Positions 11,776-21,024 of a stretch of DNA of 38,259 nucleotides are shown here, in pieces; position 1 is the stretch's first letter, and each line of letters starts with the position of its first letter. Origin of the DNA: an uncultured Thiogranum sp. (lineage in GTDB: Bacteria > Pseudomonadota > Gammaproteobacteria > DSM-19610); assembly GCA_913053655.1 (NCBI GenBank), contig CAJXFW010000007.1, positions 1 to 38,259 of the forward strand, given 5' to 3'. The notes below the pieces were generated by a model. The model was not told the DNA's origin. It did not search any database and saw only the letters and a program-made list of their open reading frames with translations. The translations under genes and the position numbers were made by a program.

Positions 11776-12879
11776 GTGCAACCCTATACGCCAGAATCTT
11801 TACCAATCAATGCGTTAGATAAGGCCGCACTGTTTACCGCGGTTGGTGAGGCCAACGCCGCCCTGGCTCGATACGATGGCCTGCTGATCGGCATGGTTAA
11901 CCCGGCAGTGATGCTTTCCCCGCTAACCAACCAGGAAGCGGTGCTCTCCTCCAAAATCGAGGGAACCCAGGCGACGGTGGAGGAGGTGCTGGAGCATGAG
12001 GCAGGCCAGGAGCACGATGAGGACAAACGCCAAGACATCAACGAAATCCTCAATTGTCGACAGGCGTTAATCCTTGCCAAAGGAAGTGTGCTGGACCGCC
12101 CTATCCGCCTGAGTCTGATTAGAGAGCTGCACCGGATTCTGATGAACAGCGTGCGCGGCGAAAACAAGGAACCCGGCCAGTTCCGCAAGGACCAGAACTG
12201 GATAGGCTCCCCTGGCTGTACCATCGAGGAGGCCACGTTCGTGCCCCCCAGCCCGCTTCAGCTGATGGACCACCTTAACGCGTGGGAAGCTTACCTCAAC
12301 AGCGAGGATATCGATGCCATCGTGCAAACAGCGATTGTCCACGCACAGTTTGAGATGATTCACCCTTTCAAGGACGGCAATGGGCGTATCGGACGACTTC
12401 TGATCCCGCTTTTTCTTTATCGTAAGGAACGGCTCACCAGCCCAATGTTCTACCTCTCTGCCTATCTGGAACGTAACCGGGATGAATACTACGCCCGCCT
12501 TCGCGCCATATCGCAGGAAGCTGACTGGTCCGGGTGGTGTGCATTCTTCCTGCGCGCAGTCACAGCACAGGCAAAAGAGAATGGCGCTACCCTGCGAGAG
12601 ATCATGGCCCTCTATGAGGTCACAAAGGTCCAGGTGCGCGATATTACCCATTCGCCACACAGTGCTCAGCTGGTGGATGCCCTGTTCGACCGTCCAATTT
12701 TCACCGCCGCTGACATTGCGCGGCGGGCAGATGTACCCAAACCTACGGTACACAAACTGATCAAAAGCCTGCTCGACGAGGGGATGCTGGATACGGTGCG
12801 CGCGGCCTCTGGCCGCCGCCCCGCCATACTTATCTTTGCCGAGTTATTGAATACACTGGAACGCAAACAACTGGTTTGA
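11776..12879 (+). CDS. Fic family protein (predicted AMP transferase) with C-terminal winged helix
   Basis: Predicted Fic enzyme that moves AMP, or another nucleotide part, from a nucleotide to target proteins. The 367-residue product carries the full catalytic motif HPFKDGNGRIGR from His196. An N-terminal SSKIEGT (residues 58-64, Glu62) matches the class II inhibitory helix [S/T]xxxE[G/N], so the enzyme should be auto-inhibited. The C-terminal 70 or so residues (FTAADIARRADVPKPTVHKLIKSLLDEGML) form a winged helix-turn-helix. The start is GTG; MQPYTPESLP is the usual beginning of this subfamily. Such proteins act alone or in toxin-antitoxin-like units; no separate small antitoxin is visible. 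It stands alone, divergent from the TIGR04255 operon. Confidence 0.9.
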   Translation: MQPYTPESLPINALDKAALFTAVGEANAALARYDGLLIGMVNPAVMLSPLTNQEAVLSSKIEGTQATVEEVLEHEAGQEHDEDKRQDINEILNCRQALILAKGSVLDRPIRLSLIRELHRILMNSVRGENKEPGQFRKDQNWIGSPGCTIEEATFVPPSPLQLMDHLNAWEAYLNSEDIDAIVQTAIVHAQFEMIHPFKDGNGRIGRLLIPLFLYRKERLTSPMFYLSAYLERNRDEYYARLRAISQEADWSGWCAFFLRAVTAQAKENGATLREIMALYEVTKVQVRDITHSPHSAQLVDALFDRPIFTAADIARRADVPKPTVHKLIKSLLDEGMLDTVRAASGRRPAILIFAELLNTLERKQLV

Positions 12880-16112: not shown

Positions 16113-16889
16113 TCACAGGGTGACATAGATATCATAGCGTGTCTTTTTGCTCTCTATGGATGTATCGGGCTTCCGGTCATGCAGGAAGCCTGCCCGTTTG
16201 GGACGTTTAATCACCACGCGTCGCAGGGCGGCTCGCAGCGCGATATCCAGTAACTCCCCGGAATCCAGGTCAGGCCCGACAATCTGCTGTAAGGCACGCA
16301 TATCTTTTTTTACTTCTACATGTACCTTGCCGGCCGGGTACATGGGGTCCATGTAGATAACTTGCGGTCGCTGCGCTTCCGCCAGAGACTGTAGTTGCCG
16401 GCCGGAATCTGCGTTTACCAGCCGCAGTCTGTCGCCGACCCAGGCGCCAATACTACTATCATCTGCCGCCCTGAGCAGCGCATCGTGCAGTAACGCAGCC
16501 AGTATGGGAGAGCGTTCGCACAGAGTAACGTGGCAACCCAGACTGGCGAGCACGAAACCATCGCGGCCGAGCCCGGCGGTGGCATCCCAGATGTCCGGAT
16601 TAAAACCCGGCTTCATTCCCACAGCGCGCGCCAGCGGCTGGCCGCGGCCAGCCCCGAAGCGTTGTCGGTGACCCATGGTGCCACCGACAAAATCAATACG
16701 TACAGGACCCGGCATGTGCGGGCCAGCCTGGCATAGTGCCAGCCCGTACTCGTTTAATTCAAGATAAAAACCCGACTCGGGTGTTGCCGGGCAGCGTGGG
16801 ATATCGAATCTATCCATCAGTAATGCGGCCCGTTTTTTTAGAGCGTCAGAGTGATACACCAAGCCAATGTGTTCTGTTATTGCGGGCAT
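16113..16889 (-). CDS. rsmJ: 16S rRNA (guanine(1516)-N(2))-methyltransferase
   Basis: RsmJ (YhiQ) methylates G1516 of 16S rRNA using S-adenosylmethionine. The 258-residue product has the SAM-binding loop DATAGLGRDGFVLASLG, the acidic CERSP that follows, and YMDPMYP as the catalytic N/DPPY-type motif. Family hallmarks VRIDFVGGTMGHRQRFG and the C-terminal VIKRPKRA are present. The start ATG at 16889 lies inside the left copy of a 140-bp duplication; the other copy at 19977-20116 holds its first codons as a remnant, so the gene's upstream region was changed by the insertion. Confidence 0.92.
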   Translation of the reverse strand: MPAITEHIGLVYHSDALKKRAALLMDRFDIPRCPATPESGFYLELNEYGLALCQAGPHMPGPVRIDFVGGTMGHRQRFGAGRGQPLARAVGMKPGFNPDIWDATAGLGRDGFVLASLGCHVTLCERSPILAALLHDALLRAADDSSIGAWVGDRLRLVNADSGRQLQSLAEAQRPQVIYMDPMYPAGKVHVEVKKDMRALQQIVGPDLDSGELLDIALRAALRRVVIKRPKRAGFLHDRKPDTSIESKKTRYDIYVTL

Positions 16890-17019
16890 GTGCCCAGTCT
16901 AACCTGCTTTTACTCGATGATTACAGGTTGGCGATTTGAGGAATTGAAGGAAGTGGCGTACTGCAGCGGGGTTCTTTGCGCTTTATCGCGCATATAGCCA
17001 GTTAGCGTATACCGTTTGC
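16880..17019. repeat. Left copy of a 140-bp direct repeat (rsmJ start / phosphatase gene 3' end)
   Basis: Pairs with 19977-20116 at a constant offset of 3097 bp and no gaps. The first 64 bp (16880-16943) are identical; the other 76 bp differ at 10 positions. This copy contains the working rsmJ start codon and a dead remnant of the last 32 codons of the phosphatase gene: on the minus strand the codon AAA of the functional copy is TAA here. Confidence 0.9.
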
Positions 17020-17249
17020 CCCAGCTAGTTTCACCAGACATTTTTTCATCCGTCTATAGACGACGTTAGACGTGTTTTGTGATTTGGTTATATGTCACTT
17101 TTATACCCGTGCGCTCTAGTGGGAATTGAAAAAACCAGAGTCACTTGTTTCTGATGCGATGAATCACATCGGGCAGTTCGCAATTGCCGGCAATACGCCT
17201 ATGCACAGACCGGGGATGATCGGCGTACACAGTGTTAAAACTGCAATGG

Positions 17250-17768
17250 CTATTGTTCTTCATTTGCGATCGCCTTCGCGATACAGGCAAACGCGTCTTC
17301 GATCAACGGCCAATCCCGTTCGATATCTGAACATGCTTCATCACTGCGTCGATAGACGGCTGGCGAGAATCCTCCATTTTTTAACCGATAAAATCCAACG
17401 GATATAGATTCCAGATTAGCCCGATTCTTTTCCAGGTCGACAACCCAAGGAGCGACAGGGCCGCCACGAGCTGCGACTTTTTCAAGCAAGTCGTCAAGTT
17501 CTATTGCATGCCGTCGGTGGACCGCGATTTGCTCTGCGATCTCTTCGCTGTTGGATTCGCCGATCGCGACTGCATCCGGCCGCCAGGCAAGGTTTTTACT
17601 TTCGAGCCGCATCCAGGCAAGAAGCGCCTGTACTGCTGGACCGGAGATGTCGGCTGGCTGCTCGGCCCAGCGTCGCATCGTTCTGGCGCTGACCGACAGT
17701 AAAAGGGCTGCCTCAGGCACAGTGAGGTCAAGCGATTGAAGGCAGTGCTGAAATTCGGTTTCGGTCAC
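17250..17768 (-). CDS. Helix-turn-helix regulator of the islet
   Basis: 172 residues from a GTG at 17768 (TETEFQHCLQSLDLTVPEAA). Residues about 14-40 read LDLTVPEAALLLSVSARTMRRWAE, a clear helix-turn-helix of the XRE/antitoxin type. A Lys/Arg/Glu-rich middle (EEIAEQIAVHRRHAIELDDLL) may dimerise; the C-terminal RLKNGGFSPAVYRRSDEAC is unrecognised. The frame stays open to an ATG at 17885, but that extension crosses the operator palindrome and the promoter at 17776-17803, so I prefer the GTG. No Shine-Dalgarno is visible, and the predicted transcript start is almost at the GTG. Likely self-regulating; targets unknown. Confidence 0.65.
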   Translation of the reverse strand: MTETEFQHCLQSLDLTVPEAALLLSVSARTMRRWAEQPADISGPAVQALLAWMRLESKNLAWRPDAVAIGESNSEEIAEQIAVHRRHAIELDDLLEKVAARGGPVAPWVVDLEKNRANLESISVGFYRLKNGGFSPAVYRRSDEACSDIERDWPLIEDAFACIAKAIANEEQ

Positions 17769-17775
17769 TCTGGCT

Positions 17776-17817
17776 AGTGTATAGACATATTGTCCGGTGT
17801 CAATCGGACAATATGTC
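17776..17817 (-). promoter_or_regulatory. Promoter with embedded operator palindrome for the islet HTH regulator
   Basis: GACATATTGTCCG and CGGACAATATGTC (17784-17796 and 17805-17817) are perfect 13-bp inverted arms around an 8-bp spacer. Each arm holds a smaller palindrome of the form GACA-tat/ata-TGTC. On the minus strand a perfect -35 box TTGACA lies in the spacer (17803-17798), with TACACT (17781-17776) 16 bp further, so the operator brackets the -35. Confidence 0.6.
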
Positions 17818-17889
17818 CAGAGCTGGGGCCTGGCAGTAGGCGCTGCCGTGTGGCACCCGGCATTTTTCTGAGTTATCGTCAGCAAATAG

Positions 17890-17942
17890 TAACATTATGT
17901 TGAATGCTAACATTGGTAATGTTAGCATTCAACATAATGTTA
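17890..17942. promoter_or_regulatory. 53-bp perfect palindrome, triple operator upstream of the AbiE-like pair
   Basis: Two perfect 25-bp arms flank a 3-bp spacer (GGT, 17915-17917). Inside are three sub-palindromes with the half-site AACAT: AACATTATGTT (17891-17901), AACATTGGTAATGTT (17909-17923) and AACATAATGTT (17931-17941), with centres at 17896, 17916 and 17936, exactly 20 bp apart. TTGAAT (17900-17905) and TAGCAT (17923-17928), 17 bp apart, could serve as promoter boxes inside it, in both directions because of the symmetry. The region is AT-rich in a GC-rich setting. Confidence 0.75.
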
Positions 17943-18968
17943 GAAACATTTCTGAAATCCGCTGGTGGCAACGATTTCGCGGTGCAGCTTCAAAACTACC
18001 TTGGCGCAACGCTGCACCAAGAGGTGAGCTTGGGCGTTTGGGATAAGGCCCGCGGTCTGCCAACCTTCTTATTGCGACGGTATGGCTATTATGCAGGCAT
18101 GATCGCGCAGCAGCCGTGCCTATTCGCTATCGATCTTGCTACAGCCGACGCTACACCCGCAGAGGTCGCCAAACACATTGCGCACATCGCCCGAAGTTTT
18201 GACGGTCTTGTAGTTTACGCCGCACAGCAATTGTCCGCCAATCGGCGCGCGCGTCTTATCGTCAACAGCGTGCCATTCGCTGTGCCTGGTAATCAGCTGT
18301 ATATACCTGAGCTCGCGGTAGATCTCAGAGAGCATTTTCGCACCCGATCAACGCGAAGTCCTGATCAGCTATCGCCGGTCGCACAAGCCGTCCTGTTTTT
18401 CGAAATTTTGTACCGCGAAAAATTGCACTCTGATAGCGAGCACCGTACTCCGTCCCGATTAGCCGAGTCGCTATGCTACTCCGCCATGTCGGTTGGTCGC
18501 GCGTTCGAGGAACTGGCCAGCGCCGATCTTGCAATCGTCACCAAACACGGTCGCACAAAGCAAATCCGCTTTGCCACAGACCCCCGCGCGTTGATTGATG
18601 TTTCCCGTGCGCTGCTGCGTAAACCGGCAAAATCTCGGAAATTCGCCAAAGGCCGTCCCATAGTGCCGCAAATGAAGGTGGCGGGTGAAACTGCGCTATC
18701 TCATATAACAAGTATTTCTCCGCCGCGATTGCCGGTGTTTGCCGTGCACAGCGACGAATGGCGTCTGGTTGCGGCGACGAACGATCTAACGATAGTCGAC
18801 GATGCGGATCAAGCAGATTCAGTGATCGAACTCTGGCATTACAGGCCAGACGTTCTGTCGGACGACATAACTGTTGATCCCTTGTCACTTTACGCGCAGT
18901 TCTGGGACGATCCAGACGAACGTATTGCTATGGCTGCCGAAGAAGCATTGGAGCACGTCTCATGGTAG
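17937..18968 (+). CDS. AbiEi-like regulator/antitoxin candidate (winged helix)
   Basis: 343 residues from the ATG at 17937 (MLETFLKSAGGNDF); a 33-nt longer form starting inside the palindrome is possible but adds a hydrophobic run. The N-terminal half has hydrophobic strands with LVVYAAQQLSANRRARLI and VPFAVPGNQLYIPELAVDLREHF. Residues about 155-205 (HRTPSRLAESLCYSAMSVGRAFEELASADLAIV) form a winged helix. The gene overlaps the next by 7 bp, so the two are translationally coupled. The order regulator then nucleotidyltransferase is that of type IV AbiE toxin-antitoxin systems, in which the first protein represses the operon. Assignment to AbiEi is inferred from context and fold hints, not from a diagnostic motif. 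Confidence 0.6.
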   Translation: MLETFLKSAGGNDFAVQLQNYLGATLHQEVSLGVWDKARGLPTFLLRRYGYYAGMIAQQPCLFAIDLATADATPAEVAKHIAHIARSFDGLVVYAAQQLSANRRARLIVNSVPFAVPGNQLYIPELAVDLREHFRTRSTRSPDQLSPVAQAVLFFEILYREKLHSDSEHRTPSRLAESLCYSAMSVGRAFEELASADLAIVTKHGRTKQIRFATDPRALIDVSRALLRKPAKSRKFAKGRPIVPQMKVAGETALSHITSISPPRLPVFAVHSDEWRLVAATNDLTIVDDADQADSVIELWHYRPDVLSDDITVDPLSLYAQFWDDPDERIAMAAEEALEHVSW

Positions 18969-19717
18969 TGGGAATCGACAAGTTTCGAGAACATTTTGCG
19001 GGTCACGAAGAACAATATGCGTTGATAGGTGGTGCGGCTTGCGACTTGATCTTCGCCGATGCCGGGCTCCCGTTTCGGGCGACAAAAGATCTGGATGTCG
19101 TTCTTTGCGTTGAAGTTGTTAATTCTAACTTCGCGACCGCGTTTCTAGGATTCCTTGACGCTGGCGGCTATGAAGCGAGACAGCAAAGTGAAGGACACAA
19201 AGAGTTCTACCGTTTTCATCAACCGAAAGACGGATCGTACCCTTTCATGATCGAACTGTTTTCTCGCCGGCCTGGCGGGTTCAAACTGCCCGATAAGTTC
19301 GCCATCGTTAAGGTTCCCGTTGATGAAGATATCCTGAGCCTGTCGGCTATCCTGCTCGATGAGCACTACTACGCTGCTTTACAAAATTCGCGAATCGTCA
19401 TCGACGGAATTTCGCTGTTGAGTGAGGACCTGCTCATTCCTTTCAAGGCCAAAGCGTTTCTCGATCTTACCCAGCGGAAGGCCAATGGCGATAAAGTGAA
19501 GAATGACGATATTAAAAAGCACCGCAGAGATGTATTTCGTTTGGCACAGCTATTACCCGCAGACCGCCAGGTCAAAATCGCCGAGGCCATCGCAAATGAC
19601 CTTCGCGAATTTCTGGACAATATCCGAGACGACGAAACCTTCGATCCGAAGGCGTTTAAGGCGCCGTTGACTCGGGCTGAGGGCATTTCCCTCTTGGAAA
19701 CAGTCTATGGTTTATGA
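18962..19717 (+). CDS. Nucleotidyltransferase, AbiEii-like toxin candidate
   Basis: 251 residues. The N-terminal LIGGAACDL (Gly23-Gly24) followed by RATKDLDVVL (Asp43, Asp45) is the GG...DxD signature of the nucleotidyltransferase fold; the Glu in YPFMIELFSRRPGG is a candidate third carboxylate. The C-terminal half (LLSEDLLIPFKAKAFLDLTQRKANGD, DDIKKHRRDVFRLAQLL) is the helical, basic region common in AbiEii/AbiGii proteins. In characterised relatives the enzyme modifies tRNA or other RNA with nucleotides and stops growth; here activity is only predicted. The start ATG overlaps the stop of the preceding gene (ATGGTAG). Confidence 0.75.
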   Translation: MVVGIDKFREHFAGHEEQYALIGGAACDLIFADAGLPFRATKDLDVVLCVEVVNSNFATAFLGFLDAGGYEARQQSEGHKEFYRFHQPKDGSYPFMIELFSRRPGGFKLPDKFAIVKVPVDEDILSLSAILLDEHYYAALQNSRIVIDGISLLSEDLLIPFKAKAFLDLTQRKANGDKVKNDDIKKHRRDVFRLAQLLPADRQVKIAEAIANDLREFLDNIRDDETFDPKAFKAPLTRAEGISLLETVYGL

Positions 19718-19818
19718 AACATAAAAGGGGTTCAGAAATAAGAAAAACCTGGCGTCCTGATAGTTATGTCTGTTCTTTGGGTTATAGAGGAATAGCGCTA
19801 AGTTAAGCTCATAAACCC

Positions 19819-19925
19819 TGTCATTTCGAGGAGTGCAGCGACGCGGCGATCTCAGAATGACGGCGTATAACGTCATGAGATTGCTGCGCTACGTTTATGC
19901 CCTGCCCGTGGGTGCTCGCAATGAG
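19819..19925. repeat. Imperfect inverted-repeat element of the TCATT-CGAG ... CTCGCAATGA type
   Basis: The left arm (19819-19854) and right arm (19875-19925) are inverted partners: CTGTCATTTCGAG against CTCGCAATGAGGG at the outer ends, GCAGCGACG...GATCTCA against TGAGATTGCTGCGC inside. The centre has its own stem, ATGACG-8 nt-CGTCAT (19857-19876). Short dispersed elements with this wording are common in many bacterial genomes. It lies between the nucleotidyltransferase gene and the right direct repeat. Confidence 0.6.
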
Positions 19926-19976
19926 GGTCATTTTTGCTTAAGCAAGTGCCATTCAGATCAGGTCCGACAATTTTTG

Positions 19977-20116
19977 TTGCGGGCATGTGCCCAGTCTAAC
20001 CTGCTTTTACTCGATGATTACAGGTTGGCGATTTGAGGAAGTGAAGGAAGCGGTGTACTGCAGCGGGGTTCTTTGCACTTTATCATGCGTATAACCAGTT
20101 TGCGTATCCCGTTTGC
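19977..20116. repeat. Right copy of the 140-bp direct repeat
   Basis: Partner of 16880-17019. This copy carries the functional last 32 codons of the SpoIIE-type phosphatase gene (stop at 20018-20020) and, at its left end, only the first few codons of rsmJ reading into unrelated sequence. Confidence 0.9.
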
Positions 20117-20842
20117 AGTGCGGGACAGCAGTTTTTTTGAGCCTGGTTGTTGTTTGAGCAGGAACAGTGTGAGGTCATCGGCAAATTGCTCGCTACCGTT
20201 GAGGGCTACCAACGCATCAATCAATGCTTGGTAGAAACCGTTTATGGTAGTTTGTTCGATACTGTTCAGCAGCGCGATCAATCCGTCGAATCCAAGCCGG
20301 GTCCCGTCTTTTTCGAAATAACGGATGTCTCCCAGAATACCGATCGGTGGGCTGGAACCGCATTCCGGCAGAGTCCGCCAGACCCCGTCGCGCTGGATAA
20401 GTATATAGGGGTGTCCGGCATAGGCGTAGGTCAGACTACGGTCCCAGTGGTTATAGGTCGCTGCGGCTGCTGTGGCAAAGCTGCCGCTGGATTCTGTAGA
20501 AAGTAGTTTGCTGTTCAGTTCTTCGAGGATGGCACCGTTACCCAGCTCGGTCATCAGCTTCGACAATGGTTGTTTAAGGCGCGAGGAAATTTCTGCCGCC
20601 GAATCATCATGTCCGGCGACATCGATAAGCAAAAATTTACTGAACACACCATGATTGCACACCGTGACATGGTAGATATCACCGCCGGTGTTTTTGTCAG
20701 CGCAAGGTATGGACAACAGGTAGCCATCCAGTCCCGGCATAGTGAAGGTTTCCAGTGCTCGCTCATTGCCGCCCCAGACGATGTTACAGAACCAGGTATC
20801 AGGCTGGCTGGTCAGTGGCAGTGCCCACGCAGTGGTTTGCAT
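20018..20842 (-). CDS. PP2C/SpoIIE-type serine/threonine phosphatase
   Basis: 274 residues from the ATG at 20842, chosen because AGGAG lies 7 nt upstream; an in-frame ATG at 20881 has none. Motifs of the metal-dependent phosphatase fold are in order: GGDIY (residues 53-57), LLIDVAGHD (72-79), YAGHP (141-145) and FADDLTLFLL near residue 213, which supply the metal-binding aspartates. No sensor or receiver domain is attached, so it resembles stand-alone RsbX/RsbP-like output phosphatases; the substrate is unknown. The last 32 codons lie in the right direct repeat, and the basic C-terminal tail (KKLLSRTANGIRKLVIRMIK) is intact only there. Divergent from uvrD. Confidence 0.8.
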   Translation of the reverse strand: MQTTAWALPLTSQPDTWFCNIVWGGNERALETFTMPGLDGYLLSIPCADKNTGGDIYHVTVCNHGVFSKFLLIDVAGHDDSAAEISSRLKQPLSKLMTELGNGAILEELNSKLLSTESSGSFATAAAATYNHWDRSLTYAYAGHPYILIQRDGVWRTLPECGSSPPIGILGDIRYFEKDGTRLGFDGLIALLNSIEQTTINGFYQALIDALVALNGSEQFADDLTLFLLKQQPGSKKLLSRTANGIRKLVIRMIKCKEPRCSTPLPSLPQIANL

Positions 20843-21024
20843 ACCGGTCTCCTGACAGGGGCGATTGAAATGCAGTAACAACCGGATGGACAGCAGGCGA
20901 ACGGTCAGGTTCCGTCCACGGGGTCCGTAATGGTGTCTATGATGGACTAAGCTGTTAGTGGGACTGCAAATTTTTAATTACAGAAAATAACAACTATTCC
21001 GGTTATTGTACGGGCCGGCTTTGC

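Follow-up and report, generated by a model that had tools for sequence, protein, structure and literature searches.

A perfect 53-bp palindrome as the probable operator–promoter of a toxin–antitoxin operon of diverged AbiE/MenAT type in an uncultured Thiogranum sp.

A 53-bp perfect palindrome stands at the head of two overlapping genes in the stretch of 38,259 nucleotides from an uncultured Thiogranum sp. that was analysed here as a whole and is called the window. In our opinion, judged from the sequence, it is probably (about 0.82) the operator–promoter through which a diverged AbiE/MenAT-type toxin–antitoxin operon represses itself, composed of four half-sites and with the transcription start at or adjoining the ATG of the first gene. 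With this would go binding by the first product, repression, the start itself and toxicity of the second product, all of which we infer. The element and the two genes are as follows.

17890 to 17942, no strand assigned: 53-bp perfect palindrome, candidate operator–promoter, with a 23-7-23 layout taken from the conserved geometry
17937 to 18968, plus strand: open reading frame of an antitoxin-like regulator of 343 aa, AbiEi_2/COG4861-like, its predicted start being the ATG in half-site 4
18962 to 19717, plus strand: open reading frame of a toxin-like nucleotidyltransferase of 251 aa with a MenT/AbiEii fold, its start overlapping the end of the regulator gene

The two arms (17890–17914 and 17918–17942) are complementary at 25 of 25 positions around GGT, exactly as a previous sequence-only reading of this DNA had described. 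Other inverted repeats of the surrounding 2-kb region are of 14–19 nt and 79–86%, and no second copy of the palindrome was found in the genome. Comparison of 25 homologous loci, the window included, gave the conserved pattern TAACA-N13/15-TAACA-N7-TGTTA-N13/15-TGTTA, which in the window is distributed as follows.

17890 to 17894, plus strand: half-site 1, TAACA; the TAAC core is found in 25 of 25 loci, with placement by best match within 17–21 bp
17908 to 17912, plus strand: half-site 2, TAACA, part of the central dyad; TAAC core in 25 of 25 loci
17920 to 17924, minus strand: half-site 3, TGTTA, part of the central dyad; GTTA core in 25 of 25 loci
17938 to 17942, minus strand: half-site 4, TGTTA, overlapping the start codon; GTT in 25 of 25 and the final A in 24 of 25 loci

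At 40% identity the antitoxins of these 25 curated loci group into 8 clusters, at 50% into 13. A central dyad matching at least 9 of 10 bases was found at a gap of 7 in 25 of the 40 loci examined, and every other gap from 0 to 15 was represented by at most 8 loci. The loci were chosen by the central dyad, so its invariance is partly a result of selection of the loci; the outer sites were taken as the best match within 17–21 bp and their presence was not required. Among the loci with a dyad of at least 8, the outer sites lie at 18–20 bp on the left in 26 of 29 and on the right in 29 of 29. A scan with the four-site model scored 16–20 of 20 in the clear loci, and the shuffled sequences gave means of about 12–14 and maxima of 13–16. 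The array was also detected in L009 and L011 by the scan and in L010 by eye; visual inspection also showed a GGTTAA-like variant of the half-site in some Pseudomonas plasmid operons (L010, L042, L043). In some homologues, e.g., L045, L048 and L050, no clear array was found by the four-site scan. The same four-piece array upstream of distantly related gene pairs in many bacteria means that the element is real and conserved, and as far as can be read from these sequences its half-sites are under strong selection.

The earlier reading had divided the palindrome otherwise, into three AACAT...ATGTT operators spaced exactly 20 bp apart. Such pairs are indeed present at the proposed centres, 17896, 17916 and 17936, but the units are not equal, since the first and third are AACAT-1-ATGTT and the second is AACAT-5-ATGTT (gaps 1, 5 and 1). 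Moreover, the inner halves of the outer units, ATGTT at 17897–17901 and AACAT at 17931–17935, match 0–4 of 5 bases, never 5, in 24 homologues, whereas the outer TAACA and TGTTA match 4–5 of 5 in 24 of 24 homologous loci and are what is conserved. Three tandem dimer operators are therefore highly improbable. Whether the three-unit spacing recurs in homologues had been proposed as a check. A multi-site spacing is kept, but what is conserved is a distance of 18–20 bp between half-sites of the same orientation around a 17-bp central dyad. This spacing upstream of homologous operons supports the earlier suggestion that the site is a DNA operator on which the 343-residue regulator would act.

Symmetry as such is another matter. 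Over 26 pairs, 25 are symmetric in the window and 9–18 in the homologues, where the outer pairs fall out of register at spacings other than 18, and the perfection is thus local. Symmetry without an error is a peculiarity of this genome, and the function does not need symmetry beyond the half-sites. The additional symmetry plausibly, as we assume, arose by quasi-palindrome correction via template switching. Recent origin or strong selection had been offered as explanations for the whole palindrome; it may be said that selection applies to the half-sites, while the symmetry outside them is genome-specific and fits a recent local event.

The half-sites are interleaved with predicted promoter elements.

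17900 to 17905, plus strand: predicted –35 element, TTGAAT; 17 of the 25 loci have TTG here, where the background frequency is 1.7%
17923 to 17928, plus strand: predicted –10 element, TAGCAT, after a 17-bp spacer; weak by consensus and absent from the output of a generic promoter scan

Both elements agree with the consensus at 4 of 6 positions. In the 17 loci that have it, the TTG precedes half-site 2 by 8 bp, and the T ending the –10 element is likewise found in 17 of the 25. With the A of the ATG nine bases past the –10 element, the predicted transcription start falls at the ATG or 1–2 bases earlier. The start codon at 17937–17939 does lie in the right arm, inside the third AACAT/ATGTT unit, as had been pointed out. 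An in-frame ATG in half-site 4 is found in 15 of 25 loci, and the annotated start agrees with it in L005, L006, L007, L037 and L038; in other loci, e.g., L025 and L044, the start is 20–28 bp downstream and a Shine–Dalgarno-like sequence was recognized by eye. In this branch, the mRNA is likely to be leaderless or nearly so, as suggested by the position of these motifs. Owing to the exact symmetry of the palindrome, identical –35 and –10 elements stand on the minus strand of 17890–17942, together with a mirrored ATG (17895–17893), and divergent leaderless transcription toward the HTH-like gene on that side is possible.

The position of the start bears on the proposal that the palindrome is both a DNA operator and an RNA switch, in which a transcript begun upstream would fold into a 25-bp stem and hide its own start codon. 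If transcribed through, the hairpin of the window would be very stable (–33.1 kcal/mol, z –10.4). However, with a predicted start at or adjoining the ATG, the usual transcript would be without the left arm, which argues against such a switch, and neither symmetry (9–18 of 26 pairs) nor stability of the stem is conserved: the nine homologous segments gave –9.3 to –22.6 kcal/mol, several of them being not clearly better than shuffled sequences. The generic scan found no plus-strand promoter upstream, although the same scan also misses the predicted promoter. An RNA switch is accordingly unlikely, and the combined operator and switch may be rated as very improbable.

The preferred reading, an autorepressor operator, is consistent with the properties of the two proteins, for which no meaningful family match was obtained in Pfam, NCBIfam and PADLOC. 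Profile–profile comparison of the regulator with nine AbiEi_2 (PF09952) proteins gave a remote similarity over the whole protein (probability 97.6, E 4e-12, 318 columns, 12% identity). In Pfam searches, PF09952 gave no match to the regulator at E 1 and none to 14 homologues at E 0.01. The structural model (pLDDT 83; pTM 0.56, so the domain arrangement is uncertain) has three parts: the N-terminal domain resembles XisH proteins (Z 8.7), a winged helix of MarR type spans about 143–229, and the third part is a C-terminal domain. The winged helix is thus central, and the two-domain COG5340 type of antitoxin with an N-terminal winged helix was not recognized. Foldseek gave no match below E 0.001; AbiEi was not among the structures listed, and this is no evidence against a likeness to AbiEi. 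Comparison with solved structures by sequence led mostly to generic winged helices.

For the toxin-like protein, the model (pLDDT 84) is closest to MenT3 (Z 11.5, rmsd 3.9, 203 residues aligned), with MenT1 and MenT4 also among the top structures. Motifs I–II of the family (hGG...DhD) are represented by IGG and an RATKDLD-like segment, in which GG, R, T, D and D are invariant in 11 homologues, at a spacing longer than that of AbiEii. In place of the canonical motif IV, +DxxD, there is a variant KHxxD, with K, H and D invariant in the same 11 proteins; taken together, GG, RxTxDxD, the lysine of motif III and KHxxD vary little or not at all. The search with Pfam PF08843 gave no match over the cut-off, and a relative (L046) reached E 0.0016, also below it. 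Profile–profile similarity to AbiEii is modest (E 1.8e-5). Similarity to the toxins linked to AbiEi_2 is weak and confined to the catalytic core, 2 of the 9 downstream open reading frames compared being not toxins. Nothing convincing was found by sequence among solved structures. Within residues 39–45, an invariant Thr stands two residues ahead of DxD, and this residue seems positionally equivalent to Ser78 of MenT3. It is possible that it is a control point. Ser78 of MenT3 is phosphorylated (PMC11375011).

Relatives of both proteins, usually encoded side by side, occur on plasmids and in genomes, mostly of Proteobacteria, and also in Bryobacterales, Acetoanaerobium, Sulfurospirillum and others. 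Among 369 sampled genomes of the class to which the window belongs and 398 of the phylum, 7 were matched in the antitoxin search and 9 in the toxin search, its own genome included; the sparseness of the pair and its presence on plasmids suggest horizontal movement. Viral contigs scanned with the single toxin gave nothing, and the alignment scan gave five loci; in the antitoxin alignment, no segment was conserved well enough for scanning. Antitoxin homologues without a detected adjoining toxin were observed in L011, L016, L018 (near a contig end), L019 and L047, and split or partial toxin genes in L007 (beside an IS481 transposase gene), L039, L040 and L041. The genome of the window (G000) has eight AbiEii (PF08843) matches elsewhere, some of them fragments, none being the toxin of the window. 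The gene at 11776–12879 encodes a Fic-domain protein that resembles Fic_N at its N-terminus and a winged helix at its C-terminus.

The operon itself is situated on an insert.

17020 to 19973, no strand assigned: insert (islet) carrying the operon, bracketed by 143-bp direct repeats
16877 to 17019 and 19974 to 20116: the 143-bp direct repeats, 92% identical, that bracket the islet

The left copy of the repeat resembles the 3' end of a SpoIIE-domain gene at 20018–20881, and in three relatives (genomes G004, G006 and G012) the SpoIIE-domain and methyltransferase genes are adjacent and the insert is absent at this site. A second inverted repeat (CATATTGTCCG...CGGACAATATG) was noted on the minus strand at 17776–17815, overlapping a good promoter (TTGACA-16-TACACT) of the divergent HTH-like gene that ends at 17250; it is probably the operator of that gene itself.

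The location on an insert, the terminator-like patterns scored on the minus strand and the fragmented, incomplete state of the genome assembly could all speak for a palindrome of another kind than an operator, whether a terminator, a site of islet recombination or insertion, or a fold-back of the assembly. Nevertheless, the element is single in the genome, and the same half-sites recur at the corresponding position upstream of homologous genes in unrelated genomes and plasmids. The insert ends about 0.9 kb and 2.0 kb from the palindrome. A fold-back would continue past the arms, but the sequence flanking them is unique. Such explanations are hardly credible.

An operator–promoter of this kind has known counterparts. 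In Streptococcus agalactiae, AbiEi represses its own operon by binding 23-bp repeats 3 bp apart over –35, –10 and +1 (PMC3985639). This system (COG5340 AbiEi and DUF1814 AbiEii) and that of the window are alike in having the antitoxin gene before the nucleotidyltransferase toxin gene, a winged-helix autorepressor and mirrored 23-bp repeats over –35, –10 and +1, the autorepressor and the promoter positions being predicted in the window. They differ in the sequence of the repeats, TGTTGCTTTTA... in abiE and TAACA half-sites in the window, and in their layout, by sequence 23-3-23 in the former and 23-7-23 in the latter, with arms 7 bp apart. The AbiE antitoxin has two domains with an N-terminal winged helix and its mRNA carries a leader that includes a ribosome binding site, whereas in the window the winged helix is central and the mRNA is probably leaderless. 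The MenAT4 system of Mycobacterium tuberculosis (Rv2827c–Rv2826c) likewise has several antitoxin sites around the promoter, autorepression (predicted here) and a MenT-type toxin, and Rv2827c binds four 23-bp repeats (PMC7319586). Unlike the compact 53-bp mirror of the window, these repeats extend over about 131 bp in two pairs, and the antitoxin belongs to COG5340.

The literature passages that we found on COG4861 antitoxins contain no description of an operator, and the operator work found covers only the COG5340 branch of AbiE/MenAT systems; one of the four pairs of M. tuberculosis has Rv0837c as its putative antitoxin, and this has been named a COG4861 protein (PMC7319586). The AbiEi_2/COG4861 antitoxins share with the regulator of the window the full-length profile similarity, a nucleotidyltransferase gene directly downstream and, in 5 of 8 canonical loci (L055, L056, L057, L059 and L062), an array of four mirrored half-sites with an outer spacing of 17 bp and a 6-5-6 dyad, which scores 16–18 of 18 and is equalled by 0 of 100 shuffles. 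In L058, L060 and L063 the array score does not stand out. The canonical central dyad of 17 bp has the same length as that of the window family, counting six-base half-sites. In contrast, the canonical half-sites are GTTCAC/GTACAT-like at 17 bp, those of the window family are TAACA at 18–20 bp, and the antitoxin of the window has no match to Pfam PF09952. We regard it as an even chance that the whole class of COG4861-type antitoxins uses a compact mirrored operator of four half-sites (17–20 bp, 6-5-6 dyad, 17–20 bp), in which the geometry is kept and the half-site sequence has changed, and that one branch fuses operator, promoter and leaderless start codon into about 53 bp.

In the preferred reading, the regulator would use its central winged helix to bind the four TAACA half-sites, each 23-bp arm providing two half-sites 18 bp apart and the arms being mirrored across 7 bp. 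As the half-sites interleave with the –35 and –10 elements and the predicted start, their occupancy would block RNA polymerase. When the antitoxin is plentiful, both genes would be repressed; a drop in antitoxin would lift the repression, and transcription would start at or adjoining the ATG in half-site 4, giving a leaderless or near-leaderless mRNA with no hairpin.

Systems of the AbiE/MenAT kind are common as modules of defence and stability. A recognizable operator of a diverged AbiEi_2-like branch could serve to find such operons; both proteins of the window are missed by Pfam, NCBIfam and PADLOC. Exact half-sites with a start-site prediction are now available for testing, and the operator, imperfect in the relatives, is present in the window with perfect symmetry. 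If the class-wide operator and its fusion with the start codon are true, the operator would also determine the opening codons of the gene for its regulator.
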